From positions 124,001 through 188,000 of the forward strand of contig JAEUIH010000003.1 of NCBI GenBank assembly GCA_016795105.1: DNA of 64,000 bases, in the 5' to 3' direction. This DNA is from Planctomyces sp. (GTDB lineage Bacteria; Planctomycetota; Planctomycetia; Planctomycetales; Planctomycetaceae). Positions 51,170 through 63,194 of the stretch are shown here, one piece after another; position 1 is the first letter of the stretch; each line of letters opens with the position of its first letter. A model generated the notes under the pieces. That model saw only the letters and a program-made list of their open reading frames with translations. It did not search any database and had not been told where the DNA came from. A program made the translations under genes and the position numbers.

Positions 51170-51375
51170 GATGAAACTCCCTGCGGACAGAAGTCGGTCT
51201 GGCAAACACGCATCGTGACGAGAAAGAAGTCATCAGGCAAATCAGCTTCACACAAAAATTGTGCCGGTATCTAAGGGCTGGCCTCTATATCCATCAGCAA
51301 GGCGGAATTCTAAAGTCACTCAACTTGATCCTGGTCAACTGGAAGTTGTGATTTGAACCGCGAAACGGGAGTCCC

Positions 51376-53487
51376 ATGGCAAAATCGCGAAAGAAGCCAT
51401 CAAAATCGTCAGTGGATGGCGATGGCGTTGAGTCTCGTGGAAAAAGGCAGGCAAAGGCTGACGGCACAGAATGCTTCCTGACAACCAATCAGGGGCTTCC
51501 TGTATCCGACAATCAGAACTCCCTCCACACATCGCAAAACGGCCCCGTACTCCTGGAGGATTTTATACTCAGGGAGAAGATTACTCACTTTGATCATGAG
51601 CGAATTCCGGAACGCATTGTTCATGCGCGTGGAACAGGAGCGCATGGTTACTTTGAACTGACAGAATCACTGGCTGATTACACGACGGCTCGCGTCCTGA
51701 CGGAAGTCGGAATGCGGACTCCTGTATTCGCGCGATTTTCAACCGTTGCCGGTGGTGCAGGCTCCGCCGATACTCCGCGTGATGTTCGCGGTTTTGCGGT
51801 CAAGTTCTATACATCTGAAGGAAACTGAGATCTCGTCGGAAACAACGTCCCAGTGTTCTTTATTCAGGATGCCATCAAGTTTCCGGACCTTGTCCATGCT
51901 CTGAAAATGGAGCCAGATCGGGGATTTCCACAGGCCGCAAGTGCTCATGATACGTTCTGGGACTTTATCTCCCTGATGCCGGAATCCATGCATATGGTGA
52001 TGTGGGCCATGAGTGACAGAACTCTTCCACGATCTCTTCGCATGATGGATGGTTTTGGCGTGCATTCGTTTCGCATGGTGAATGCCAGCGGCGAATCCAC
52101 GTTCGTGAAGTTTCACTGGCGTGCGGCACTTGGCGTTCAGTCAATGGTCTGGGATGAAGCGGTCAGGACAGCCGGAGCCGATCCCGATTTTCACAGAAGG
52201 GACCTCTGGGATGCGATTCAGTCCGGTGATTTCCCTGAGTGGGAACTTTCTGTGCAGCTGTTTACTGAAGAGGAGGCTCAGGAGTTTCCGTTCGACCACC
52301 TCGACCCAACCAAACTGATTCCGGAAGAGCTCGTTCCTCTGCTGCCAATTGGTCGGATGGTACTGGATCGAATGCCGGATAATTTCTTCGCTGAGACCGA
52401 GCAGGTTGCATTCTGTCCTGCCAATATTGTGCCTGGTATCGACTTCAGCAATGACCCATTGCTGCAGGGGCGGCTGTTCTCTTATCAGGATACACAGCTG
52501 CTTCGTCTGGGGTCCCCCAACTTTCATCAGTTGCCGATCAATCTGGCTCGTTGTCCAGTCAACAACAATCAGCGAGATGGACGCATGCAGATGCAGGTAC
52601 CAACGGGTCGGGTGAATTACGAGCCAAACAGTCTTGGCGGTCGCAGTCCAAAAGAAATGGCAGCAGGGTTTCGGACCTTTCCTGAGGCACAGCCGTACTC
52701 TTCGTCGAACAGCAAGGGGCGAATTCGGTCGGAGAGCTTTGCAGATCATTTCAGTCAGGCGACGATGTTCTATCGCAGTCAGTCAGCGACAGAGCAGTCA
52801 CACATTGTCTCTGCATTGATCTTTGAGCTCTCAAAGGTGGAAACGCCGGAGATTCGCTGCCGGGTCGTGGGATGCCTGCATCAAATCGACGAAGATCTGG
52901 CCGTGAGAGTGTCCAACGGTCTTGGCTTAACGGGAGTTCCTCAGACTCTGGAATCACCGGCAGGCATTATTGAGTATCCGACATTCTGTTCGCTTCAGCT
53001 GATCAATGAACGGCAGAGGACTCTGCGGGGACGGTGTGTTGGGATCATGATCAGCGATGGATCGGATGCTTTACTACTCGATACGGTTCGTTCAGAGATT
53101 CAGCATGCCGGAGCGAGTACTCGAATTGTGGCGCCTCGCATCGGGGAAACAAAACTGAGCAACGGCGTGCAGATTGTGACTGACGGACAACTCGCCGGTC
53201 ATCCGTCAGTATTCTTCGACGCCATTGTTGTTTTGCTCACCGTCGAGGCTGCCACTTTTCTTACTCGGGATGCCTCAGCGACGAGCTTTGTGCGAGACGC
53301 TTACACGCACCTCAAGGCGATCGCGGTTGACATCGGTGGTCAAATTCTGATGGATGCAGCTGGTTGTGAAGTCGACGAATCCGTGGTCAAACTCTGTGAA
53401 GCGGACGCCGATTCCATCCGACAGTTCCTGTCTGCTGCGGAAACACGCCTATGGTCAAGAGAGCCAGCGATCCGCAGCATGCCCTAA
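51376..53487 (+). pseudogene. katE: Large-subunit (HPII-type) catalase interrupted by a TGA codon
   Basis: Two reading frames, 51376-51828 and the rest to 53487, are in the same frame and together form one catalase of about 703 codons. They are separated only by TGA at 51826-51828. The first part has the distal His83 in [13 protein letters not shown]. The second has GNNVPVFFIQDA with the catalytic Asn, RLFSYQDTQ with the proximal Tyr, and a C-terminal flavodoxin/DJ-1-like domain (VGIMISDGSDALLL...). The stop falls where catalases have Trp in EGNWDLVGNN, so a TGG to TGA change is the simplest reading. GGGAG precedes ATG 51376. Alternatives are sequencing error or read-through. Confidence 0.85.
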
Positions 53488-53534
53488 GTATTGAGGCAAT
53501 TCCCCGTTTTGTTTTTGAAGAGGAGTTAAATTCG

Positions 53535-54047
53535 ATGGCAGCGTCAGATACCGTAACCGAATTGCATGAACTTTTTGTTGGTCAGCTGCGAGATATTCTA
53601 TGGGCTGAAAAGCAATTGCTGAAGGCAATTCCGAAGAAGGTCAAGCTTGCTAAGTCTGCGGCTTTGAAAACCGCATTCGGAGCTCATCTTGCTGAAACCG
53701 AGGAACAGGTTGCAAGACTTATACGCATCTTTGAAGACCTCGGTCTGGCTCCTCGAGCAAAGAAATGCGATGCAATGGAGGGGCTTCTGACCGAAGGCGA
53801 TGAGCTTGCTGAAGAGTATTCGGATTCCGCTGCACTGGACGCCGCGCTGATCTGTGCTGCTCAGAAGATCGAACACTACGAGATAGCAACGTACGGAACA
53901 TTGCGGGCCTTTGCATCTCAGCTGGGACTTCATGATTCTGAAAAGCTGATTGCTCTGACCCTGAAAGAGGAAACGGGTGCAGATCAGAAGTTAAGTCAAA
54001 TCGCCATGAAGACCGTCAATGTCAATGCGAATTCTGAAGACCAGTGA
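53535..54047 (+). CDS. DUF892 ferritin-like protein (YciE/YciF family)
   Basis: A 170-residue four-helix protein. ATG 53535 follows GAGGAG and begins MAASDTVTELHELFVGQLRDILWAEKQL, a DUF892 opening. Glu/His residues in HLAETEEQVARL and AAQKIEHYEIATYGTL would bind a di-metal site as in rubrerythrin-like proteins. The family is associated with stress and oxidative damage. It begins 48 bases after the catalase stop, and the two probably form one transcription unit. Confidence 0.85.
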   Translation: MAASDTVTELHELFVGQLRDILWAEKQLLKAIPKKVKLAKSAALKTAFGAHLAETEEQVARLIRIFEDLGLAPRAKKCDAMEGLLTEGDELAEEYSDSAALDAALICAAQKIEHYEIATYGTLRAFASQLGLHDSEKLIALTLKEETGADQKLSQIAMKTVNVNANSEDQ

Positions 54048-54121: not shown

Positions 54122-57100
54122 CTATCCGGCGCTGTGTGGCGGTTCAATTTCGCCCAATGCAATCGCGTCGACGACGGCCTGAATTGTGTTGACAGCATTC
54201 AGTTTCAGTTTTGAATTGCGAACATGCTGTTCAACAGTTCGTTCGGAGATGTTCAGCAGGATTGCCGTTTCGGCCTGTGACTTTCCGGCAGCAATCCATT
54301 GGAGTACCTCTTTTTCCCGGGTGGTGAGCAGCGATCGCTGTATTGAGCGAGAGGTCCGGTTTTTGAAGGCTTCGCTGAGACTTTGTTCAAGGTCCTTCGA
54401 AGAGAACGGCTTTTCCAGCACCACCCAGTTCAGGGGTAAACTTTGGTGGACCTGTTCGAGTAGTCCGGACCCGGTCATTACAATGACCTGAAGGTCCGGG
54501 ATGAGTTCTGTCATGCGACGCGCCAGGCTCATTCCGTCCAGCCCGTTTCGCAACGGGAGATCAGTAATGAGAATCCGGACGCCATGCTCTGCAATCACCT
54601 GAAGAGCGGAGTCTGCATCGGGAGCAGTGAGTACTCGATGTCCGAATCGTTCAAGCAGCAGTCGAGTCGACGATCGCACCGACTCATCACTATCCACGAT
54701 CAGGATCGATGTCTGAGGGTCGTTTCTGACGGCAGCGACTGTCACAGACGTCTGAGGTATAAATCGTGGTACTCTGAGTCGAACTGTGGTGCCTGCTCCG
54801 GGAGTACTCTGAATTCGCAGATGTCCACCGCTTTGCGAAACGAATCCGTGAACCATGCTGAGACCGAGTCCATATCGGTCAGAAGAACTGGCTGTTGTAA
54901 AGAATGGCTCAATGGCTCTTTCAAGGACATCAGCCGTCATTCCTACCCCATGATCTTTGACAGAGATTTCAACCCAGTCGCCGAGAAATCCGGCTTCATC
55001 GGCAATCAGTTGGTGTCCGTCAACATTTGACGTGGCCAGCTGTACGGTACCGCCGGAGGGCATGGCGTTCCCGGCATTTTCGCAGAGGTGACTGATTGCG
55101 GCGATGAGATGATCGGGGTCGAGGCAGACGTCCCAGAGGTTTGCTGCGAGATTCATTTCGAGGTGAACAAGTGGGCCGCACTGCAGTTGTAGGGCCATGA
55201 ATGCAGCATTGAGGGCATCATTTACTCGGATCGTCCGGGATCTCAGAAACTGTCCCCTCGCAAAGTGTTTGACCTGACAGAGGATTTTTGCAGCCCGCTG
55301 AGCAGCCCGCTGAGCTTCAATCAGGAATGGGCTGTGGACAGGCCGTTTTCCGGATACTGCGGCATTGCTGTCCATTTCAAGTTCTACATTTGCGCTGATT
55401 ACCGTCAGAGAGTTGTTGATAATATTCATCATTCCGGCAGCAACATCTTCAAGTGCCACCAGCCTTAACAGTTCGGAGTGTCTCTCTCTCGTAATGTCCG
55501 TCGTGACAGCTGCTATGATGAGTTGTGAGTTGCGTGATGTGCGTGTCAGGTGGCTGCGTACCCAGATTTCCCGACCATCGGCCCTCAACATGCGATATTC
55601 GCAGACACCCTGAGTTCCTGTTGAAAGGGCTGCGCAATTGACTTCAAACCGCTTGCGATCGCTGGGCAGAATGCACTGTTGCCATCCTCCGGATCGTCCG
55701 AGAAAGTAAATGTCGCGATATCCCAGCAGATCGATTGTCGGATGGGAGATTGACAGCATCGTCTGCGTTTCCCAATCCATTTCCCAGAGTACTCCGGAAA
55801 CAGCGTTGGTAAGCCGTTTGTATTGCTGAGAATCGAGTTCGATATCTTCTGACAGTTGGACGATGTCACCGACGTCATCAAACACGATGGCCGTAGAGCT
55901 GTGTTCAGTGGCTGAAGATTCCTGCAGCCGCACCATCGTGACTCTAAAGAGCCGCTCTGACCAGCTTTGCATACATTCAGCCCGTTGAGCACCGGCCGAT
56001 CGCTTCGAACGAAGTGTTCTGAGGATGTCATTTGAGGGCAGGACTCCGCTCAGTTCCATCATGTACAACAGCGACGGCTCAATTCCGGTCAGTTCCAGAA
56101 AGGACTCATTTGCATACAGGACTCTTTCGTGCTGATTCACAATCACGACAGCCGAGGTGAGGCCGGACATCAGTTGTTCGGCATAGCCATGAGTCTGCAG
56201 AAGCGTGGCTGCTCGGGCTTCCATATAAGCATCGACAATAAATGTCATGTCAAAGTAGATTCTTCGGAACAGAGCCTTCAGTGGTTGCTGAAGGCTCCCG
56301 GGGCTCGCTCGAAGGTTCTTCAGGATTCCGCTGACCTGCCTGCCAAGTCCGACAAGATACCACTGCAGCTTCAGCCCTATCGACTCGTGGATCACTCCGA
56401 TCCTCATTCGAGATGCCGCATATCGACTGTCATGTTCGCCGAGAAGAAACTCTTTCCAGTAGGCACTGACCTGGCTGATAAGTCTGTCGATCTGATTTTC
56501 GGGAACGATGTCGGCGAGTTCGGGGCTGGATCGAACATACTGGTAAAACTCACTCAGTATGGATGGCAAAGCGGACTCGATTTGCGGCTGGATTGTAGTT
56601 AGATGCAGGTGCGTCTTTTCATCGATCCCGATGAAATCCCGTCGAGATGTCGTATCCGATTCGCTGATCCGGATTCGAGTGATTCCATATCCAGTGTTGA
56701 TTGATAACGATGGCTTGTGCGTGACGCTGCGTGCCAGACTATTAACACTCGTTTCTGCGGCGATCGTGCTGAACCGCGTTCCAACGCTCTCGGAATCTGC
56801 GACATGTCCATACGCATCAAGCACCAGTGATGCGTCGAAGAAGATAGATTTGTGCAGGGAGTCCAGAAGATCCAGAATTGTTTTTTCCGGCAGGTTGCAT
56901 TCATAGAAAGCATCAACGTACTCGCAAAAGAAGTGCGCATAGGTGGCAAGGTACCATTGCGGTGTGACACGAATTCGATGATGAATCATTCCGATTCCGA
57001 GTCGCTGCAAAACGTATTCACGACCTATATCCTGCTGGAACAATTGCAGGATATACTGATGCTGGAGCGCAACAAGACGTTCGATTCGTGATTCCTGCTT

Positions 57101-57331
57101 AAGCATTTCTGCCAGTTGCGGAGTTTCTCGAAATTTTGCATACAGCTTTCTTACGAAACCACCTGCTCGTTCGGCGACTGTTTCCCAGATTTCCCTGAGA
57201 CGCTGTCTGTCGGTGGAAGTAAGTGCGAGAGCAGCCAGTCGCTCCTCCGTGATGAGATTGGTGATTCCGAGAGATTCCGCCAGTGTCTCAGCGTCCGGAA
57301 GCACTTTGCCAAATGTTTCGAATTGGTTCAT
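54122..57331 (-). CDS. Tandem protoglobin - PAS - histidine-kinase-like - receiver - LuxR-type HTH protein
   Basis: A 1069-residue single-chain signalling protein. Two globin-coupled sensor domains (about 35-190 and 240-390) keep the proximal His in IGMIHHRI (His117) and IGVIHESIGL (His315). PAS regions follow (about 395-505, 505-625). The dimerisation helix reads ALEDVAAGMMNIINNSLTVI, with Asn636 where the phosphoacceptor His is expected. The ATPase core is intact (HLCENAGNAMPSGG, DHGVGMTADVL, YGLGLSMVHGF). A receiver (about 875-990) has Asp924 in ILITDLPLRNG. A FixJ/LuxR-type HTH ends the protein (LTTREKEVLQWIAAGKSQAETAILL...). Haem binding and gas sensing (O2, NO, CO) follow from the family; DNA-binding output is inferred. 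Confidence 0.88.
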   Translation of the reverse strand: MNQFETFGKVLPDAETLAESLGITNLITEERLAALALTSTDRQRLREIWETVAERAGGFVRKLYAKFRETPQLAEMLKQESRIERLVALQHQYILQLFQQDIGREYVLQRLGIGMIHHRIRVTPQWYLATYAHFFCEYVDAFYECNLPEKTILDLLDSLHKSIFFDASLVLDAYGHVADSESVGTRFSTIAAETSVNSLARSVTHKPSLSINTGYGITRIRISESDTTSRRDFIGIDEKTHLHLTTIQPQIESALPSILSEFYQYVRSSPELADIVPENQIDRLISQVSAYWKEFLLGEHDSRYAASRMRIGVIHESIGLKLQWYLVGLGRQVSGILKNLRASPGSLQQPLKALFRRIYFDMTFIVDAYMEARAATLLQTHGYAEQLMSGLTSAVVIVNQHERVLYANESFLELTGIEPSLLYMMELSGVLPSNDILRTLRSKRSAGAQRAECMQSWSERLFRVTMVRLQESSATEHSSTAIVFDDVGDIVQLSEDIELDSQQYKRLTNAVSGVLWEMDWETQTMLSISHPTIDLLGYRDIYFLGRSGGWQQCILPSDRKRFEVNCAALSTGTQGVCEYRMLRADGREIWVRSHLTRTSRNSQLIIAAVTTDITRERHSELLRLVALEDVAAGMMNIINNSLTVISANVELEMDSNAAVSGKRPVHSPFLIEAQRAAQRAAKILCQVKHFARGQFLRSRTIRVNDALNAAFMALQLQCGPLVHLEMNLAANLWDVCLDPDHLIAAISHLCENAGNAMPSGGTVQLATSNVDGHQLIADEAGFLGDWVEISVKDHGVGMTADVLERAIEPFFTTASSSDRYGLGLSMVHGFVSQSGGHLRIQSTPGAGTTVRLRVPRFIPQTSVTVAAVRNDPQTSILIVDSDESVRSSTRLLLERFGHRVLTAPDADSALQVIAEHGVRILITDLPLRNGLDGMSLARRMTELIPDLQVIVMTGSGLLEQVHQSLPLNWVVLEKPFSSKDLEQSLSEAFKNRTSRSIQRSLLTTREKEVLQWIAAGKSQAETAILLNISERTVEQHVRNSKLKLNAVNTIQAVVDAIALGEIEPPHSAG

Positions 57332-57474: not shown

Positions 57475-57589
57475 GTTTTCATGCATGAGTTTTGCAGAGT
57501 GAATTTGCGGAAACCCCGTATCCGGCCGGCCAGCCGATGTCCGCCAGTGTGGTTGAGTGAAGCGGCTATCCCGTAGCTAATACGACAGA

Positions 57590-59002
57590 TTACAGTCCGA
57601 ATTGTCGAATCCGGTCCCGAACCTTTCCTCGAGTAATCCCCAGTATCTCGGCGGCATGCGTCTGGTTCCATTCGGTGTGTTGCAAAACGTGTGCCAACAA
57701 CATTCGCTCCATTTGCTCAAGCGACTCTGCATACAGGTCCTTAGAGTTCTCCTGTATTCGCTGATCGATAAAGTTTCTGAGATTGCCGTTCAAGACTCCG
57801 GGCACTATTTTTGAAGGATCCTGAAGGTGTCGTGATGGGTCACTGCACGCAAGTTCATCCGGGAGTGCCGAAGGGATGATTATAGGGCCGACGGAGTTCA
57901 TCACGGCGTGTCGAACAGTATTCTGCAGCTGACGGACGTTGCCTGGCCAGTCGTATTGCTGAAGAATTCTTAGAGCGTCAGCCGAGAACCCTTCAAAGCC
58001 TGTGCGGCGCATTTCAAGCAGGCATGTCCGAAGGAAGTACTGTAATAACAGAGGTATGTCTTCGATACGATCGCGGAGTGGTGGGATTCGAATCAGCAGT
58101 CCGTTCAGTCGGTACAGGAGCTCCTCTCGGAATTCTCCGTTTTGTACCTTTTCTGGCAGATTGAGATTGGTTGCGGCAATGATTCGCACGTTTGTTGAAA
58201 TTGTCGTATTTCCGCCGATGCGATGAAATTCCTGCTTTTGCAACAGTCGCAGGACTTTGGCCTGCACAATCAGAGACATGTCACCAATCTCATCCAGAAA
58301 AATCGAACCTCCGTCGCAGGCTTCGAACTTTCCGATTCGCATCCGATCGGCACCGGTGAACGCCCCCCTTTCGTGGCCAAACAATTCACTCTCGAGCAGC
58401 GTATCAGAGAGTGCAGCGCAGTTGACTGCCATAAACTGTTGCCGACTGCGTGGGCTGCTCTGGTGTATGGCTCGGGCCACAAGCTCCTTCCCGGTTCCGC
58501 TCTCCCCGATTATCAGAACCGGGACGCTCCACGTGGCCACGCGTCCTATCCTCTTGAAGACTTCCAGCATTGCGTGGCTCCGGCCAAGAAATGCATCGGG
58601 GGTGTTGGGCACGGAATCGTCAATGGTTAATACTGCAGGCGTCTCCATGATTCTGCGAGCGGCAACGGCCTTTGTCACGGTGTGAATCAACAGGTTGAGA
58701 TCGAAGGGCTTAACGAGGTAGTCATAGCCCCCAAGCTGGCTTGCTCGAATGGCAGTATTTGTGTCGAGGCGGTTTGTAATGAAGATCACAGGGATTCGAT
58801 GATCCAGGTCCCGGATCCTTGTAAGAATCTCAAAGCCTGAAGAGGTGTGAATCTGAGTATCGAGCAGGACGCAATCAATATCACCCGCCTGAAGTCGCAA
58901 AATACCGTCTGTTTCGTTCTCGGCGATACAAACCCTGTAGCGAGCAGTTTCGAGTCCGCGACTGACGAAATCATGAAATCGCGGGTCATTGTCAATCAGC
59001 AA
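57590..59002 (-). CDS. NtrC-type sigma-54 activator
   Basis: A 470-residue activator with a receiver (phospho-Asp48 in DCVLLDTQIH, Lys in YLVKPFD), AAA+ domain and Fis-like HTH (HTEWNQTHAAEILGITRGKVRDRIRQFGL). Walker A is GESGTGKE and the sigma-54 contact loop is canonical GAFTGA. The start is a TTG at 59002 (MLIDNDPRFH) with no good ribosome site; an ATT one codon up is possible. No ordinary kinase gene is adjacent; the neighbour is the globin protein. Its likely targets are the two sigma-54-like promoters near 61 kb. Confidence 0.9.
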   Translation of the reverse strand: MLIDNDPRFHDFVSRGLETARYRVCIAENETDGILRLQAGDIDCVLLDTQIHTSSGFEILTRIRDLDHRIPVIFITNRLDTNTAIRASQLGGYDYLVKPFDLNLLIHTVTKAVAARRIMETPAVLTIDDSVPNTPDAFLGRSHAMLEVFKRIGRVATWSVPVLIIGESGTGKELVARAIHQSSPRSRQQFMAVNCAALSDTLLESELFGHERGAFTGADRMRIGKFEACDGGSIFLDEIGDMSLIVQAKVLRLLQKQEFHRIGGNTTISTNVRIIAATNLNLPEKVQNGEFREELLYRLNGLLIRIPPLRDRIEDIPLLLQYFLRTCLLEMRRTGFEGFSADALRILQQYDWPGNVRQLQNTVRHAVMNSVGPIIIPSALPDELACSDPSRHLQDPSKIVPGVLNGNLRNFIDQRIQENSKDLYAESLEQMERMLLAHVLQHTEWNQTHAAEILGITRGKVRDRIRQFGL

Positions 59003-59303
59003 AATCTAAGAAAAGGCATTGCTTTTCAGGCCGTCGGTCTGATTGCCGCCGTTCATGGTATTTGCCAAAGTGCCGATAGCCTTTTGTATGCAGTTTGACG
59101 AGTGAGTCCGACACAGTGCGATCGATATTAATGGTGAGAGTTGTCTTCATGATTAATATTGCTGTTACTGTGTATCGGATGCGAGTCGCGAACTGCAGAT
59201 TTGATCTGACGTTTGCGGGATATCCCGCAATTCGAGGTTTGCCACAACTCCGGGCGGACTCAAATGCCCCCAGGGAAAGTCGTGGCGCAGGCGTCGTAAA
59301 GGC
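59003..59303. other. Intergenic region upstream of the sigma-54 activator
   Basis: 300 bases without a gene. The only structure I see is an 18-base perfect palindrome at 59213-59230. I found no sigma-54 motif here. Confidence 0.5.
59213..59230. promoter_or_regulatory. Perfect 18-base palindrome, candidate operator
   Basis: TTGCGGGATATCCCGCAA reads the same on both strands. It lies about 210-230 bases upstream of the sigma-54 activator gene and about 75 bases past the small membrane gene. It has no loop, so a DNA-binding dimer rather than an RNA hairpin is the natural reader. Confidence 0.5.
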
Positions 59304-59527: not shown

Positions 59528-59998
59528 TTAGTCTCGGTGCAGGACACCCCGCACCCATTCAAGGTTTTTCGTCAATTCCATCTGGCTACGCCGAAGCGAA
59601 GCCGATGCAGTAATCAGTTGACGAACTGCATGCCAGAGCATGCCAAGTCCTGTCACACTGACGAACACTCCGACCAGCAGCCATGAATATTCAATTGCAA
59701 GTCCAGAGATTCTGTGCAGTACTCCTGCAAGACCAAGCATCAATACTGGAAGAGCCCCTAACAGGAGGCAAAGGGCAACTAGTATCAGAAATGCGCTGCG
59801 TTTGACACCGCCTCCAAAATCGCGAAGATCAACGGTCAACAGCTGTAACTGAAGATCGCCCATTCTGAGCAGGTCTCGTATGAAGCGAGCGAGGGAATCT
59901 GGAAAGGACGAAGGCGACATGTGTTCAACCGAATTCAGGCAGGCAGTACGGTCTCGACCGAGGCCGAAAACAGCGGAAATGAAATTCGAGCAAATCAT
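59528..59998 (-). CDS. Phage-holin-superfamily-like (YqjE-type) membrane protein
   Basis: 156 residues from ATG 59998; an internal ATG at 59920 (MSPSSFPDSLARFIRDLL) would give 130, closer to the family. A cytoplasmic helical part (LRMGDLQLQLLTVDLRDFGGGVKR) precedes two helices (AFLILVALCLLLGALPVLMLGLAGVL and YSWLLVGVFVSVTGLGMLWHAV). The layout matches Holin-X/YqjE proteins, which are not lysis proteins in bacteria. It starts three bases after the previous stop. Confidence 0.7.
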   Translation of the reverse strand: MICSNFISAVFGLGRDRTACLNSVEHMSPSSFPDSLARFIRDLLRMGDLQLQLLTVDLRDFGGGVKRSAFLILVALCLLLGALPVLMLGLAGVLHRISGLAIEYSWLLVGVFVSVTGLGMLWHAVRQLITASASLRRSQMELTKNLEWVRGVLHRD

Positions 59999-60001
59999 GA
60001 A

Positions 60002-60424
60002 TCAGTCGACCCGATCGGATTGTCGCTGTTGATCGAAGTATGAACTCCGAGCTGGCGACTTTGTAAAGTCATGGACAATCTCATTCAGCTTTTTGAATGC
60101 GAAGTCTTTTAGATATCTGGCGACTGTGCTCCTGACGACCGGCATCAGTGTTGACCTGATGTTTACGGATGAAGTCGATTGCGACAGAGCAATAGGTTTC
60201 TCCCGCTTCGCCGGTGTCAAAAATACTCCGGCTGCAACTCCGATCGCGAGAATGCCAAGCGGATAGCGCCGGACATAAGTTCGCCAGTTCAGCATTTCCT
60301 GAGTAGAAACAGCAAGGCGATCAGCACGAACATCCAGTGTTGATCTCAGTAAATCCATTTGCCGGCGAATGGAATCGGCGTCTTCACTGACGATCGTTTT
60401 TTTCACGTTCCCCAAGCCCCGCAC
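60002..60424 (-). CDS. Membrane-associated protein of the YqjD/DUF3618 kind
   Basis: A 140-residue protein from GTG 60424; GTG 60406 is an alternative. A polar helix (ADSIRRQMDLLRSTLDVRADRL) precedes a short hydrophobic segment (YPLGILAIGVAAGVFLTP) and a C-terminal helix-rich tail (VARYLKDFAFKKLNEIVHDF). This resembles the YqjK/DUF3618 proteins found with CsbD-like and holin-like genes. Function unknown; membrane tethering is the inference. Confidence 0.6.
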   Translation of the reverse strand: MRGLGNVKKTIVSEDADSIRRQMDLLRSTLDVRADRLAVSTQEMLNWRTYVRRYPLGILAIGVAAGVFLTPAKREKPIALSQSTSSVNIRSTLMPVVRSTVARYLKDFAFKKLNEIVHDFTKSPARSSYFDQQRQSDRVD

Positions 60425-60465
60425 AATTTTCCGGTGAAATGAGTGAGTCCGGCCAGAAACCTCAA

Positions 60466-60909
60466 CTATCGGGATGGACGGAGCAGAAGCCCGATGATGG
60501 CTCCTCCAACAAGCCCCGCGGCAAAAGCCACTCCGACTGAAACACCAGGCTGGTTTCTGACAAGTTCCTGAGCATCGTCGTATGTTTCACTGACTCGTTC
60601 GGAAATTCGGCCGTATTGTTCACGAGCTGCTGACCCAATCCTTGCGGCTGCTTCTGCTGCCTTTGATGTGAGTTGTCGTCCGTCTTCGAGAGCATCTGAA
60701 ACGGTGGACTCGGCACCTTTTAGGACTCCGTTCAGAAACTTCTCCACATCCTGACGAGCGGCTCCCGTTTTCTTCTGAATGACACCAATCAATTGATCAG
60801 AGTTTCCCTGCATCTGAAGGAATTCATTGTCAGTGAATTCGCCCCAGCGTTCCCGGATTAGCCCTTTCAGTTGATTCCAATTCCCTTTGATTTCTGACGC
60901 AGAAACCAT
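60466..60909 (-). CDS. CsbD-like stress protein fused to a DUF883-like membrane tail
   Basis: A 147-residue protein. ATG 60909 has GGGAGA six bases upstream. Residues 1-55 match CsbD (SASEIKGNWNQLKGLIRERWGEFTDNE), a general-stress protein of sigma-B and related regulons. The rest has a coiled helix (ESTVSDALEDGRQLTSKAAE...) and a final helix (PGVSVGVAFAAGLVGGAIIGLLLRPSR), which is the DUF883/YqjD membrane end. It is the first gene of the four-gene minus-strand operon. Confidence 0.85.
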   Translation of the reverse strand: MVSASEIKGNWNQLKGLIRERWGEFTDNEFLQMQGNSDQLIGVIQKKTGAARQDVEKFLNGVLKGAESTVSDALEDGRQLTSKAAEAAARIGSAAREQYGRISERVSETYDDAQELVRNQPGVSVGVAFAAGLVGGAIIGLLLRPSR

Positions 60910-60985
60910 CTGAATTCTCCCGTCCTGAATATGTAGATGTTGAATTGAATTCGATTCAGCGAGTCCTTCCCGCAAATTCATGTTC

Positions 60986-61001
60986 TGCGAATTGCGTGCC
61001 T
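60986..61001 (-). promoter_or_regulatory. Sigma-54-like promoter of the CsbD-like operon
   Basis: On the minus strand AGGCACG-CAAT-TCGCA. The -24 GG and -12 GC are present with the correct 10-base gap; two of the eleven core bases differ. Transcription would start near 60975, about 66 bases before the CsbD-like ATG. Confidence 0.6.
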
Positions 61002-61232
61002 GTTGTCTCCTTTGCTCAGTTGAGCCGCATTTTTCAGTGATTGGATACCTGAGGTTTATCTGCGAGTTCAGCGTTCAGGTGTTGATGGTGGCTGCTGATC
61101 TTCCGACAGTGGTCGCTTATCGACCGGCAGATGCTCTTCATCAGGCTGTGCAGCGGCCAATCGGGACTCGCTGGTTTACTGATGTTCGGGAATACAGACA
61201 GAATTGCGGGGAGTCCGGGATTTGAGATCAAT

Positions 61233-61248
61233 TGGCATAGAGCCTGCT
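61233..61248 (+). promoter_or_regulatory. Sigma-54-like promoter of the AI-2E-like transporter
   Basis: TGGCATA-GAGC-CTGCT has the -24 GG and -12 GC at the required spacing and three mismatches to the core. Transcription would start near 61259, about 75 bases before ATG 61335. Confidence 0.5.
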
Positions 61249-61334
61249 GAGAATTGTTGTACCACATTGAATGATGTTTGGTGTGTGGATGATGGTGTAG
61301 CCAATTCCCGAACTAATGCTGAGATGCCCGCCTC

Positions 61335-63194
61335 ATGTCCAACAGTCAGCAACTCTCGTTCGACTATTTGCGATCGATCTACATTTTGCTTTTCACCTGT
61401 GTGGTGTTTGCCGTGCTGTTTTTTGCGAGAGAAGTACTGATTCCCATTATGCTCTCAGTCCTCATCGCTTTTGTTGTTTCACCATTGATGTTTCGTCTGG
61501 AACGCATGGGCATGAATCGAATGTGGGCGATGCTTTGTACTTCAGGACTGGTGTTTCTGTTCCTGGGAGGTTTGACCTGGATTTCTGCCAATCAACTGTG
61601 GGTGCTTGTTGGAGAAATTCCTGCTTACAAGCAGAATCTGATGACGCGAGTTGCTGCCCTGCGGCCGTCCGGACAGGGGAAATTATCACAGGCGCTCGCA
61701 ACGATTGATCAGGTAGAGAATTCTCTGGAGAGTGGACCTTCACCGACAGATTTGCCCGTTGAAACTCGGTCAGGGGCGAGTTCTTTGTCGGAAGCCGGAG
61801 GTAAGCCGTCTCCGGTGCCGATTGATGTCCGAGTGGTCGAGACGGCTCAATCCGCGGTGGAGCAGCTTGGGGTCTGGGTCAATCCGCTGCTGGGGCCGAT
61901 CGGAACGGCTGGGCTTGTTGTTGTATTGGTGATGTTCATTCTGCTGGACATTGAAGATCTGCATGATCGATTTGTTCGACTCACGGGGGATGCGGCCCTT
62001 CCACGCAGCAACATCGCGATTGATGACGCTATCGCTCGAGTCAGCGGCTATATTCAGATGACATTTCTGATCAATGCGATTTACGGTGTCACGATTTCGA
62101 TTGGTCTTGCCCTGATTGGAATTCCGAACGCCGTACTCTGGGGTGTGCTTGGAACCGTTCTCCGATTTGTTCCCTATCTTGGGCCGATGCTGATTTTTCT
62201 GATGCCGCTCGCCTTGTCGTTGGCGGCGACTTCAACCTGGCTGGCTCCGGGATTAACACTCCTCTTATTTGTCGTGCTCGAACTGGTCCTGAACAATATC
62301 ATAGAGCCATGGTTGTATGGTCGAAGTACCGGCGTGTCGTCTATGGGGATCATTCTTGCATCGATCTTCTGGGCGTGGGTCTGGGGACCAGTCGGTTTGA
62401 TTCTTGCAACACCACTTACAGTCATTCTGGTTGTAATTGGAAGACACTTTCCTCAGCTTCAGTTTATGACGACTTTGTTCGCAGAGAAGGACGCGTTTCT
62501 TCCGCATGATGAACTGTTTCAGCGACTTCTGATTGATGACTCAGCTGAAGCAGAGAACATTTCAACTCGGTTTGGCGCTGGACGAACGCTTCAGGAAGTC
62601 TGCGATGAGCTTTATCTTCCGGTTTTGACACTTGTCGAAAACCATCGAAAGATGAAGCGAGTGACAGACAACTCTGCTGAGTCGATGTGTCGCGCTGTTG
62701 TTCAGCTTGCAAAGACATGCGAGACGTCAGACTTCCAGATCAATTCATCGACGCCGGTTGTGCGGAACGAACAACCTGTCGTGCTCGTTCCAGAGAGACA
62801 CACCGAGGATCTTGCTGCATCCGAGTTGATTCAGCATGTGTTGCAGTACCGGGGGTATGAGTGCCAGATCACAGGGGCCGGGATTCTGACAGGAGAACTG
62901 TCGGAAATGCTTGTATCCAGCAGGACAGAAATTGTAGTCCTCTCGTCGATCGGCGGTGGTCGTTCGGCTTTGTTTATGAGTATCGCCAGGAGGTTGTCTC
63001 GCGCTGGCCACACTGTCGCCCTGATCTGTGGACTGTGGAATTGCATCGAGATCCGTGAGAAGGAGAGCGAATTCTTTCGTTCGGCAGGAATCACCAAAAC
63101 TGTGTCAAACGCAAAACAGCTGCTGATGGAACTGGAAGTGATCCATCAGCAGCTGAAAGCGGAGCATCGGAGACCGGTAGTTTCGGCAACCTGA
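61335..63194 (+). CDS. AI-2E family transporter with an extra C-terminal domain
   Basis: A 619-residue protein. Residues 1-390 are an AI-2E/PerM-type membrane domain of about eight helices (FVVFAVLFFAREVLIPIMLSV, a long periplasmic-loop-like region, and GLLGTVLRFVPYLGPML with GPVGLILATPLTVILVVIG). The remaining ~230 residues are not in typical members (about 350). They form alternating beta/alpha segments (VVLVPERHTEDLAASELIQ and EIVVLSSIGGGRSALFMSIA), resembling a cobalamin- or nucleotide-binding fold, without a full DxHxxG motif. Transport of AI-2 itself is not supported; the family includes Na+/H+ antiport and unknown transporters. Confidence 0.8.
   Translation: MSNSQQLSFDYLRSIYILLFTCVVFAVLFFAREVLIPIMLSVLIAFVVSPLMFRLERMGMNRMWAMLCTSGLVFLFLGGLTWISANQLWVLVGEIPAYKQNLMTRVAALRPSGQGKLSQALATIDQVENSLESGPSPTDLPVETRSGASSLSEAGGKPSPVPIDVRVVETAQSAVEQLGVWVNPLLGPIGTAGLVVVLVMFILLDIEDLHDRFVRLTGDAALPRSNIAIDDAIARVSGYIQMTFLINAIYGVTISIGLALIGIPNAVLWGVLGTVLRFVPYLGPMLIFLMPLALSLAATSTWLAPGLTLLLFVVLELVLNNIIEPWLYGRSTGVSSMGIILASIFWAWVWGPVGLILATPLTVILVVIGRHFPQLQFMTTLFAEKDAFLPHDELFQRLLIDDSAEAENISTRFGAGRTLQEVCDELYLPVLTLVENHRKMKRVTDNSAESMCRAVVQLAKTCETSDFQINSSTPVVRNEQPVVLVPERHTEDLAASELIQHVLQYRGYECQITGAGILTGELSEMLVSSRTEIVVLSSIGGGRSALFMSIARRLSRAGHTVALICGLWNCIEIREKESEFFRSAGITKTVSNAKQLLMELEVIHQQLKAEHRRPVVSAT

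Follow-up and report, generated by a model that had tools for sequence, protein, structure and literature searches.

FixL/FixJ and NarX/NarL are two-protein systems with active phosphotransfer, and the hybrid two-component systems of Bacteroides combine sensor, kinase, receiver and helix-turn-helix (HTH) in one chain, with an AraC-type HTH, a periplasmic sensor and intact phosphotransfer. Protoglobin-family sensors drive HATPase-type kinase cores in AfGcHK of Anaeromyxobacter and NmpU of Myxococcus xanthus, which are autophosphorylating kinases with separate partner proteins, the NmpU pathway ending in an NtrC-like regulator (PMC11841059; here and below, papers are cited for the passages drawn on). 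Homologues of the NmpU/NmpT type have been reported in planctomycetes (PMC6211767). The chitin-sensing hybrid histidine kinase ChiS of Vibrio cholerae directly controls a promoter through a C-terminal helix-sheet-helix domain not homologous to known DNA-binding domains (PMC8092284), and FG214 of Fimbriimonas is a one-component haem-PAS-HTH protein whose haem sits in the PAS domain, with no globin, kinase or receiver named in the cited part of the preprint (PMC13060918). How bacterial pseudo-receivers switch was called a mystery in the abstract of a 2025 review (PMC12632262). Here we analyse a gene in 64,000 nucleotides of a Planctomyces sp. (assembly GCA_016795105.1, contig JAEUIH010000003.1, positions 124,001 to 188,000; hereafter the window, 64 kb from a genome of 8.9 Mb and 391 contigs) whose predicted product joins two sensor globins to a kinase-like core, a receiver and a DNA-binding HTH in a single chain.

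The receiver-GerE output of this protein is related to FixJ. In place of the two proteins of FixL/FixJ and NarX/NarL, the window system is fused and has no acceptor His; compared with the one-chain Bacteroides hybrids, it carries a GerE HTH instead of an AraC-type HTH, globins instead of a periplasmic sensor and Asn (N636) instead of the intact His. Its sensor family and kinase core are those of AfGcHK and NmpU, but it has two globins, lacks the acceptor His and holds the HTH in the same chain, and an NtrC-like gene is its neighbour. Like ChiS, it has the layout of a hybrid histidine kinase that ends in a DNA-binding domain, here GerE, and like FG214 it unites a putative haem sensor and an HTH in one protein. 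With described pseudo-receiver regulators and pseudo-histidine kinases it shares a non-acidic residue at the second acidic position and a missing His; 18 of 20 atypical regulators are orphans without an obvious kinase (PMC12632262, section 5), whereas sensor, pseudo-kinase, pseudo-receiver and HTH form one chain here. Among the papers listed from the open-licence literature (most subscription journals lie outside it), we found no bacterial sensor with globins in tandem, no globin-coupled sensor that carries a DNA-binding domain itself and, in agreement with an initial annotation of the window, no described precedent for the exact domain order. Chains with two consecutive N-terminal globins have been noted in a set of eukaryotic algal sequences, Chlamydomonas among them (PMC1457004).

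We consider it probable that the protein is a globin-coupled, phosphate-independent transcription factor with a local regulon, derived from or arisen alongside a double-globin hybrid histidine kinase, a reading drawn from sequence comparison. We also lean, with less assurance, towards a fuller version, in which a hybrid kinase would have turned into a phosphate-free, gas-responsive transcription factor, the HTH going together with loss of the phosphotransfer residues, the ATP-binding core serving as a switch and one operator family defining a local regulon of the gene itself, an NtrC-like gene and a catalase gene. The gene and its domains are as follows.

54122..57331, minus strand: coding sequence of the twin-globin pseudo-hybrid-kinase/DNA-binding protein, a single open frame with ATG at 57331, 1069 aa
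56804..57247, minus strand: protoglobin domain 1 (Pfam), proximal H117, B10-type Y64
56216..56662, minus strand: protoglobin domain 2 (Pfam), proximal H315, B10-type Y263
55847..56179, minus strand: first PAS region, aa 385-495, a weak Pfam match at 385-445 with its extent set by eye on the alignment
55490..55753, minus strand: second PAS domain (Pfam), aa 527-614
55232..55489, minus strand: degenerate dimerization/phosphotransfer (DHp) helices, aa 615-700, limits set by eye, N636 codon at 55424-55426
54764..55120, minus strand: HATPase_c catalytic domain (Pfam), aa 738-856, N, G1 and G2 box residues kept
54377..54706, minus strand: receiver (Pfam Response_reg), aa 876-985, metal site damaged (S881), D924, T953 and K974 kept
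54170..54331, minus strand: GerE/LuxR-type HTH (Pfam), aa 1001-1054

Read forward in frame 1, positions 54122-57331 are interrupted by stops, and the coding strand, which the initial annotation left unstated, is minus. That annotation had proposed two protoglobin domains with proximal His residues at 117 and 315, and both are borne out: Protoglobin (PF11563) matches twice (4.3e-56 for the whole protein), the copies score 101.7 and 97.7 bits singly, each above the curated Pfam cut-off, and the second region, whose identity the annotation had named as a possible point of refutation, is a protoglobin by this profile. The two proximal His and the distal B10-type Tyr residues (Y64 and Y263) are invariant in all five related proteins described below; a proximal His and a distal Tyr are conserved in globin-coupled sensors, as Tyr49 and His103 in one member (PMC10882959). 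The protein therefore has the N-terminal protoglobin-family sensor with His and Tyr that marks this class, and also the fused output, here PAS-HATPase-receiver-GerE. By homology, both globins would be haem sensors of O2, redox state or NO, with O2 the likeliest ligand, and the protein is probably soluble.

A Pfam search for protoglobin, PAS, HATPase, REC and GerE/LuxR HTH, which the annotation had suggested, recovered every one of these domains, the GerE HTH as PF00196 at 1e-14. The proposed order stood for PAS, ATPase, receiver and GerE HTH but not for a single PAS, as there are two PAS regions: PAS_3/PAS_9 match within 527-614, and the match at 385-445 falls under its Pfam cut-off. This first PAS region is clearer in a congener (G011; PAS_8, 1.2e-8). 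The order is not a matter of chance, because sensor, kinase and receiver follow one another in the same way in four other genomes, at 37-39% identity. Structures predicted from single sequences had too low a confidence (pLDDT 39.6 and 40.9) and were set aside.

Using the two-globin region as query, we searched the organism's own family (170 genomes), its class (397) and its phylum (294), as well as the family of G691 (95) and the order (246) and family (43) of G684, sets that overlap. The full double-globin protein was found in five genomes altogether, namely that of the window (G000), G011, G691, G684 and G766, with full-length matches in 5 of the 397 genomes of the class; among three congeners searched only G011 has it, one of the two without it being 66% complete. 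The five chains share 33-49% identity pairwise. Among the matches listed for a single protoglobin profile run over the phylum (392 genomes), that of the window is the sole same-strand tandem pair, and among those listed for a kinase-receiver-GerE profile run over 148 genomes, the window's own alone reached the end of the profile. A whole-protein scan of genome contigs gave six loci, with frames of 212-389 aa at the matches, and no whole-chain relative.

The phospho-acceptor position of the H-box is occupied by Asn in the window protein (N636, in AAGMMNIINN), a feature the initial annotation overlooked together with the receiver damage, the pattern among relatives and the operators described below. 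HisKA gave no Pfam match in the window protein up to E=1, and the G011 protein matches it at 1.4e-5 (25.5 bits, slightly below the curated cut-off of 26.9). A HisKA without its His has a published frequency of 0.9% (PMC12632262, section 6). The ATPase box residues N752, D793, G795, G797, G821 and G823 are invariant in 5/5 proteins. In the receiver, Ser (S881) replaces the second acidic residue. Set beside an active hybrid histidine kinase, the window protein thus keeps the ATPase boxes and lacks both the His and a complete receiver site. Without an acceptor His, its own kinase core is not expected to carry out phosphotransfer. As regards a one-component regulator, which unites sensor and DNA-binding domain in one chain and dispenses with phosphotransfer, the single chain and the missing His are seen, and phosphate independence would be the probable consequence.

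The missing His goes with the HTH. Three of the five proteins (window, G684 and G766) have the HTH, and all three lack the acceptor His, with N, G and D, respectively, at position 636 and no alternative acceptor common to them at that position; the two without the HTH, G011 and G691, both keep the His (AGIAH and GGLAH) and an intact receiver. By contrast, the His is present in all of the 29 hybrid kinases from the class that were aligned to a profile built on these proteins. These controls are 29 loci, the best match per genome in a kinase-receiver profile search of 148 genomes with the window's own excluded; one extra partial match that did not span the position and the six contig-scan loci, which gave no match, were left out of the scoring. 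The receivers of the HTH-type proteins are altered too: that of G684 has Ser at the 881 position and Glu in place of the phospho-Asp, and in G766 GG replaces the acidic pair and Val the Thr/Ser. The second acidic position is a direct metal ligand of receivers, and about 80% of pseudo-receivers have non-acidic residues there (PMC12632262, section 7). Because this ligand is gone in all three HTH-type proteins, we infer that their receivers function as pseudo-receivers, and the window protein would probably go unphosphorylated.

The retained D924, T953 and K974 of the window protein tell the other way, as with them acetyl phosphate or some other kinase could still phosphorylate the receiver. In that case D924 would be phosphorylated in trans by a kinase or small phosphodonor, and the globin-kinase part would only tune the outcome, for example by dephosphorylating or sequestering the receiver; phosphorylation may survive changes at the acidic, Thr or Lys positions (PMC12632262, section 20). 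We judge this unlikely, given that the second acidic residue is lost in 3/3 HTH-type receivers, the phospho-Asp is Glu in G684, and G766 lacks both acidic residues and the Thr/Ser, so that the three share no complete phosphorylation site.

Sequence divergence among domains bears on what the core still does. Between the closest two HTH-type proteins, the HTH is 76% identical, the globins and PAS regions 48-60% and the ATPase domain 54%; among the domains, conservation is lowest in the DHp (40%) and the receiver (34%), and the linker stands at 21%. In the HTH-less pair, the DHp (47%) is second only to globin 2 (48%). Divergence of the DHp in HTH-type proteins is what is expected if phosphotransfer had stopped mattering. 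It also speaks against mixed dimers, in which the intact ATPase domain would phosphorylate the His of a partner kinase: the invariant ATP-binding residues fit such a role, and pseudo-histidine kinases can join two-component networks (PMC12632262, section 6), but the dimer-forming helices are, with the receiver, the most diverged domains in this pair and the window's genome gave a single double-globin match, making this explanation very improbable.

A decaying hybrid kinase without function would account for the catalytic residues lost in the DHp and receiver, and for the rare, scattered occurrence of the protein in the class (5/397 genomes). We give this almost no weight: three species retain frames of 1053-1069 codons with both proximal His, both Tyr and the ATP box residues, and the HTH is well conserved and accompanied by a palindromic site upstream in all three. 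A tree built without the HTH region favours grouping the three HTH-type proteins together (RELL 0.944). Recent internal duplication of the globin was considered and rejected: in a tree of the ten domain copies from the five proteins and 17 other globins, the first globins group apart from the second, each set of five in a clade of its own (support 1.000 and 0.986).

The three HTH-type genes share a 16-bp palindrome upstream, made of two 7-base arms around 2 bases (7-2-7), which was first picked by eye among upstream sequences and then tested separately. The G684 copy reads TGCGGGC-TA-GCCCGTA; its promoter has two copies 59 bp apart, and that of G766 two copies 63 bp apart. NarL sites have the 7-2-7 form, and the ogt promoter also uses tandem NarL sites (PMC7419079). 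Sequences of this 7-2-7 form stand at 3/3 HTH-type loci as putative binding sites, and the recognition-helix stretch ISERTVEQHVR is identical in the three HTH-type proteins. We trained a matrix on only the four G684 and G766 sites and ran it across the window, where the sites at 59214, 51272 and 57560 ranked first, second and third. These sites and the genes they flank are listed here.

59214..59229: predicted operator with the highest score (19.7 bits), 212 bp before the NtrC-like frame, a perfect palindrome, TGCGGGATATCCCGCA
51272..51287: predicted operator (14.2 bits), 104 bp before the start of the catalase
57560..57575: predicted operator (12.6 bits), upstream of the regulator's own gene
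57505..57520: weak candidate (5.7 bits) for a second operator of the regulator gene, at a distance of 55 bp from 57560
57590..59002, minus strand: NtrC-like regulator (receiver, sigma-54 AAA+ domain and Fis-type HTH; Pfam), predicted target
51376..53487, plus strand: catalase, long type, predicted target, frame cut by an in-frame TGA at 51826-51828
53451..54047, plus strand: DUF892 protein, frame overlapping the catalase end

In 20 Markov shuffles of the window, the top three scores averaged 11.6, 10.5 and 9.8, with maxima of 15.0, 12.2 and 11.7. None of 5000 column-permuted palindromic matrices placed top-3 sites in at least two of the three flanking intergenic regions, and 202 did so in one region. 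Control DNA from the same genome (390,507 bp in 20 stretches from five contigs picked by the analyst) held no site of at least 14.2 bits and one of at least 12.6 bits, at L120:9663 (12.9). With a matrix from G684 alone, the G766 promoter gave P 0.0005 and the window promoter P 0.005; conversely, a matrix from the window's three sites picked the two promoter sites as the two best in each 18-kb locus (L055 and L057). Under a strict pattern with at most one mismatch, 59214 is the only site in the whole 8.9-Mb genome of the window. The same pattern has its sole exact match in G684 in the regulator promoter, allowing one mismatch adding one promoter site and three other places; in G766, whose own sites fall below the threshold, it has five other places. 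It occurs four times in G012, a further congener, twice in G691, three times in G572, once in G592 and not in G011. Shared 14-mers between the G684 and G766 promoters numbered seven, no excess over five shuffles (up to 7).

The palindrome could instead belong to another factor, such as the NtrC-like regulator, with the HTH of the protein under study binding elsewhere. The window's strongest site precedes the NtrC-like gene, and in G011, a congener without an HTH-type regulator, a 13.0-bit site (L092:9534) lies 326 bp past the end of the NtrC orthologue (54% identity to the window's NtrC-like protein). That orthologue, however, has no site in the 800 bp upstream (best 5.3 bits), and the promoter of the HTH-less regulator in G011 is without signal (P 0.80, 0.95 and 0.91), which argues that the operator goes with the HTH-type regulator and not with NtrC. 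Moreover, none of six Pfam-examined proteins flanking the regulator in G684 and G766 is NtrC-like, the regulator is the one gene observed in common at all three loci, and the 7-2-7 geometry is that of NarL sites (PMC7419079). Assignment to another factor therefore seems unlikely.

Several observations, besides that congener site, weigh against a phosphate-independent factor with its own operators. The comparison with 29 kinases covers their acceptor His only. Receiver identity is low in the HTH-less pair as well (35%), and so is not specific to the HTH type; the argument from the receiver accordingly rests on its active-site residues and not on overall identity. The alternative grouping of G000 with its congener survives (AU 0.071; the test warned that its replicates were too few), and in both globin subtrees G000 falls among the HTH-less proteins, with weak support (0.32 and 0.59). 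The link between His and HTH may reflect one evolutionary event, as there are only five proteins and the HTH-type trio is perhaps one lineage. Among the operators, the second site in the window's own promoter is weak, the test for pairs 50-70 bp apart was defined only after the spacing was known, and with the matrix from G684 alone the own-promoter and catalase sites drop to ranks 6 and 7. The promoter of HTH-less G691 scored P 0.60, 0.08 and 0.0435 in separate tests. Strand matches to the strict pattern and to its backward version are about equally frequent (backward versus strict: G684, 6 versus 7; G766, 2 versus 6; G572, 5 versus 3; G592, 8 versus 1; G000, none versus 2), so that no wide regulon shows and the signal is local. 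Finally, the catalase target may be inactive, because its frame carries a stop.

In the mechanism that we propose for a phosphate-independent factor, a gas or redox change at the two globins would alter the protein dimer, and the conformational signal would reach the receiver and HTH by way of both PAS regions and the stalk of DHp helices. With its ATP site intact, the core probably takes its conformation from ATP binding, and in the ATP-bound state it would keep the pseudo-receiver and HTH either able or unable to bind DNA. An HTH dimer is predicted in silico to bind the 16-bp 7-2-7 palindrome, TRCGGGMTANCCCGYA-like. The candidate targets of the protein in the window are the gene that encodes it, the NtrC-like sigma-54 activator next to it, through which the signal would spread, and the catalase-DUF892 unit, together suggesting a local oxygen/oxidative-stress circuit. 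The idea in the initial annotation of a gas signal brought to DNA within one chain gains support from the missing His and from the conserved NarL-type palindrome in the promoters, both of which fit it.

If this reading is right, globin-coupled sensors would extend from enzymes and chemoreceptors to direct DNA binding, this being the first to act on DNA itself within the literature covered, and control of a pseudo-receiver regulator would have a complete natural case. Everything from the sensor through pseudo-kinase, pseudo-receiver and HTH to the predicted operator and targets can be tested as one set, for which the relatives that retain the phosphotransfer residues are natural controls. The presence of twin globins prompts the question whether the sensor works at two thresholds or on two gases.

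The in-frame TGA of the catalase stands in the context EGN*DLVGNN, and the halves match catalase positions 1-115 and 125-382; the stop could be either a nonsense mutation or an assembly error. Catalase and DUF892 are probably co-transcribed, given their overlapping frames. Synteny was no help in finding targets: ten window genes were compared with the congener NtrC locus, and NtrC alone matches. In G684 and G766, a gene of about 210 aa and of no assigned family (35% identity between the two) is divergent to the regulator, with the paired palindromes in between.

L055:11988-12638, plus strand, and L057:6488-7111, minus strand: divergent gene of about 210 aa

It was not found in six other genomes searched, including the window's and a congener of each, and it is therefore not a general partner. 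Plasmid origin of the sensor was likewise rejected: 43 plasmid records match the sensor part, but among the ten listed every match is shorter than 760 bp, which indicates that both query globins fall on one globin. Near the regulator, 59528-63194 holds stress-type genes (a holin-superfamily-like membrane protein, a CsbD-like protein and an AI-2E family transporter). Elsewhere in the genome of the window, on contig C363, two neighbouring genes (L042:218-802 and 920-2206) are a single-domain protoglobin and one that, judging by its N-terminal cysteine motif, we take to resemble a hybrid-cluster protein; the two possibly form a nitrosative-stress pair.

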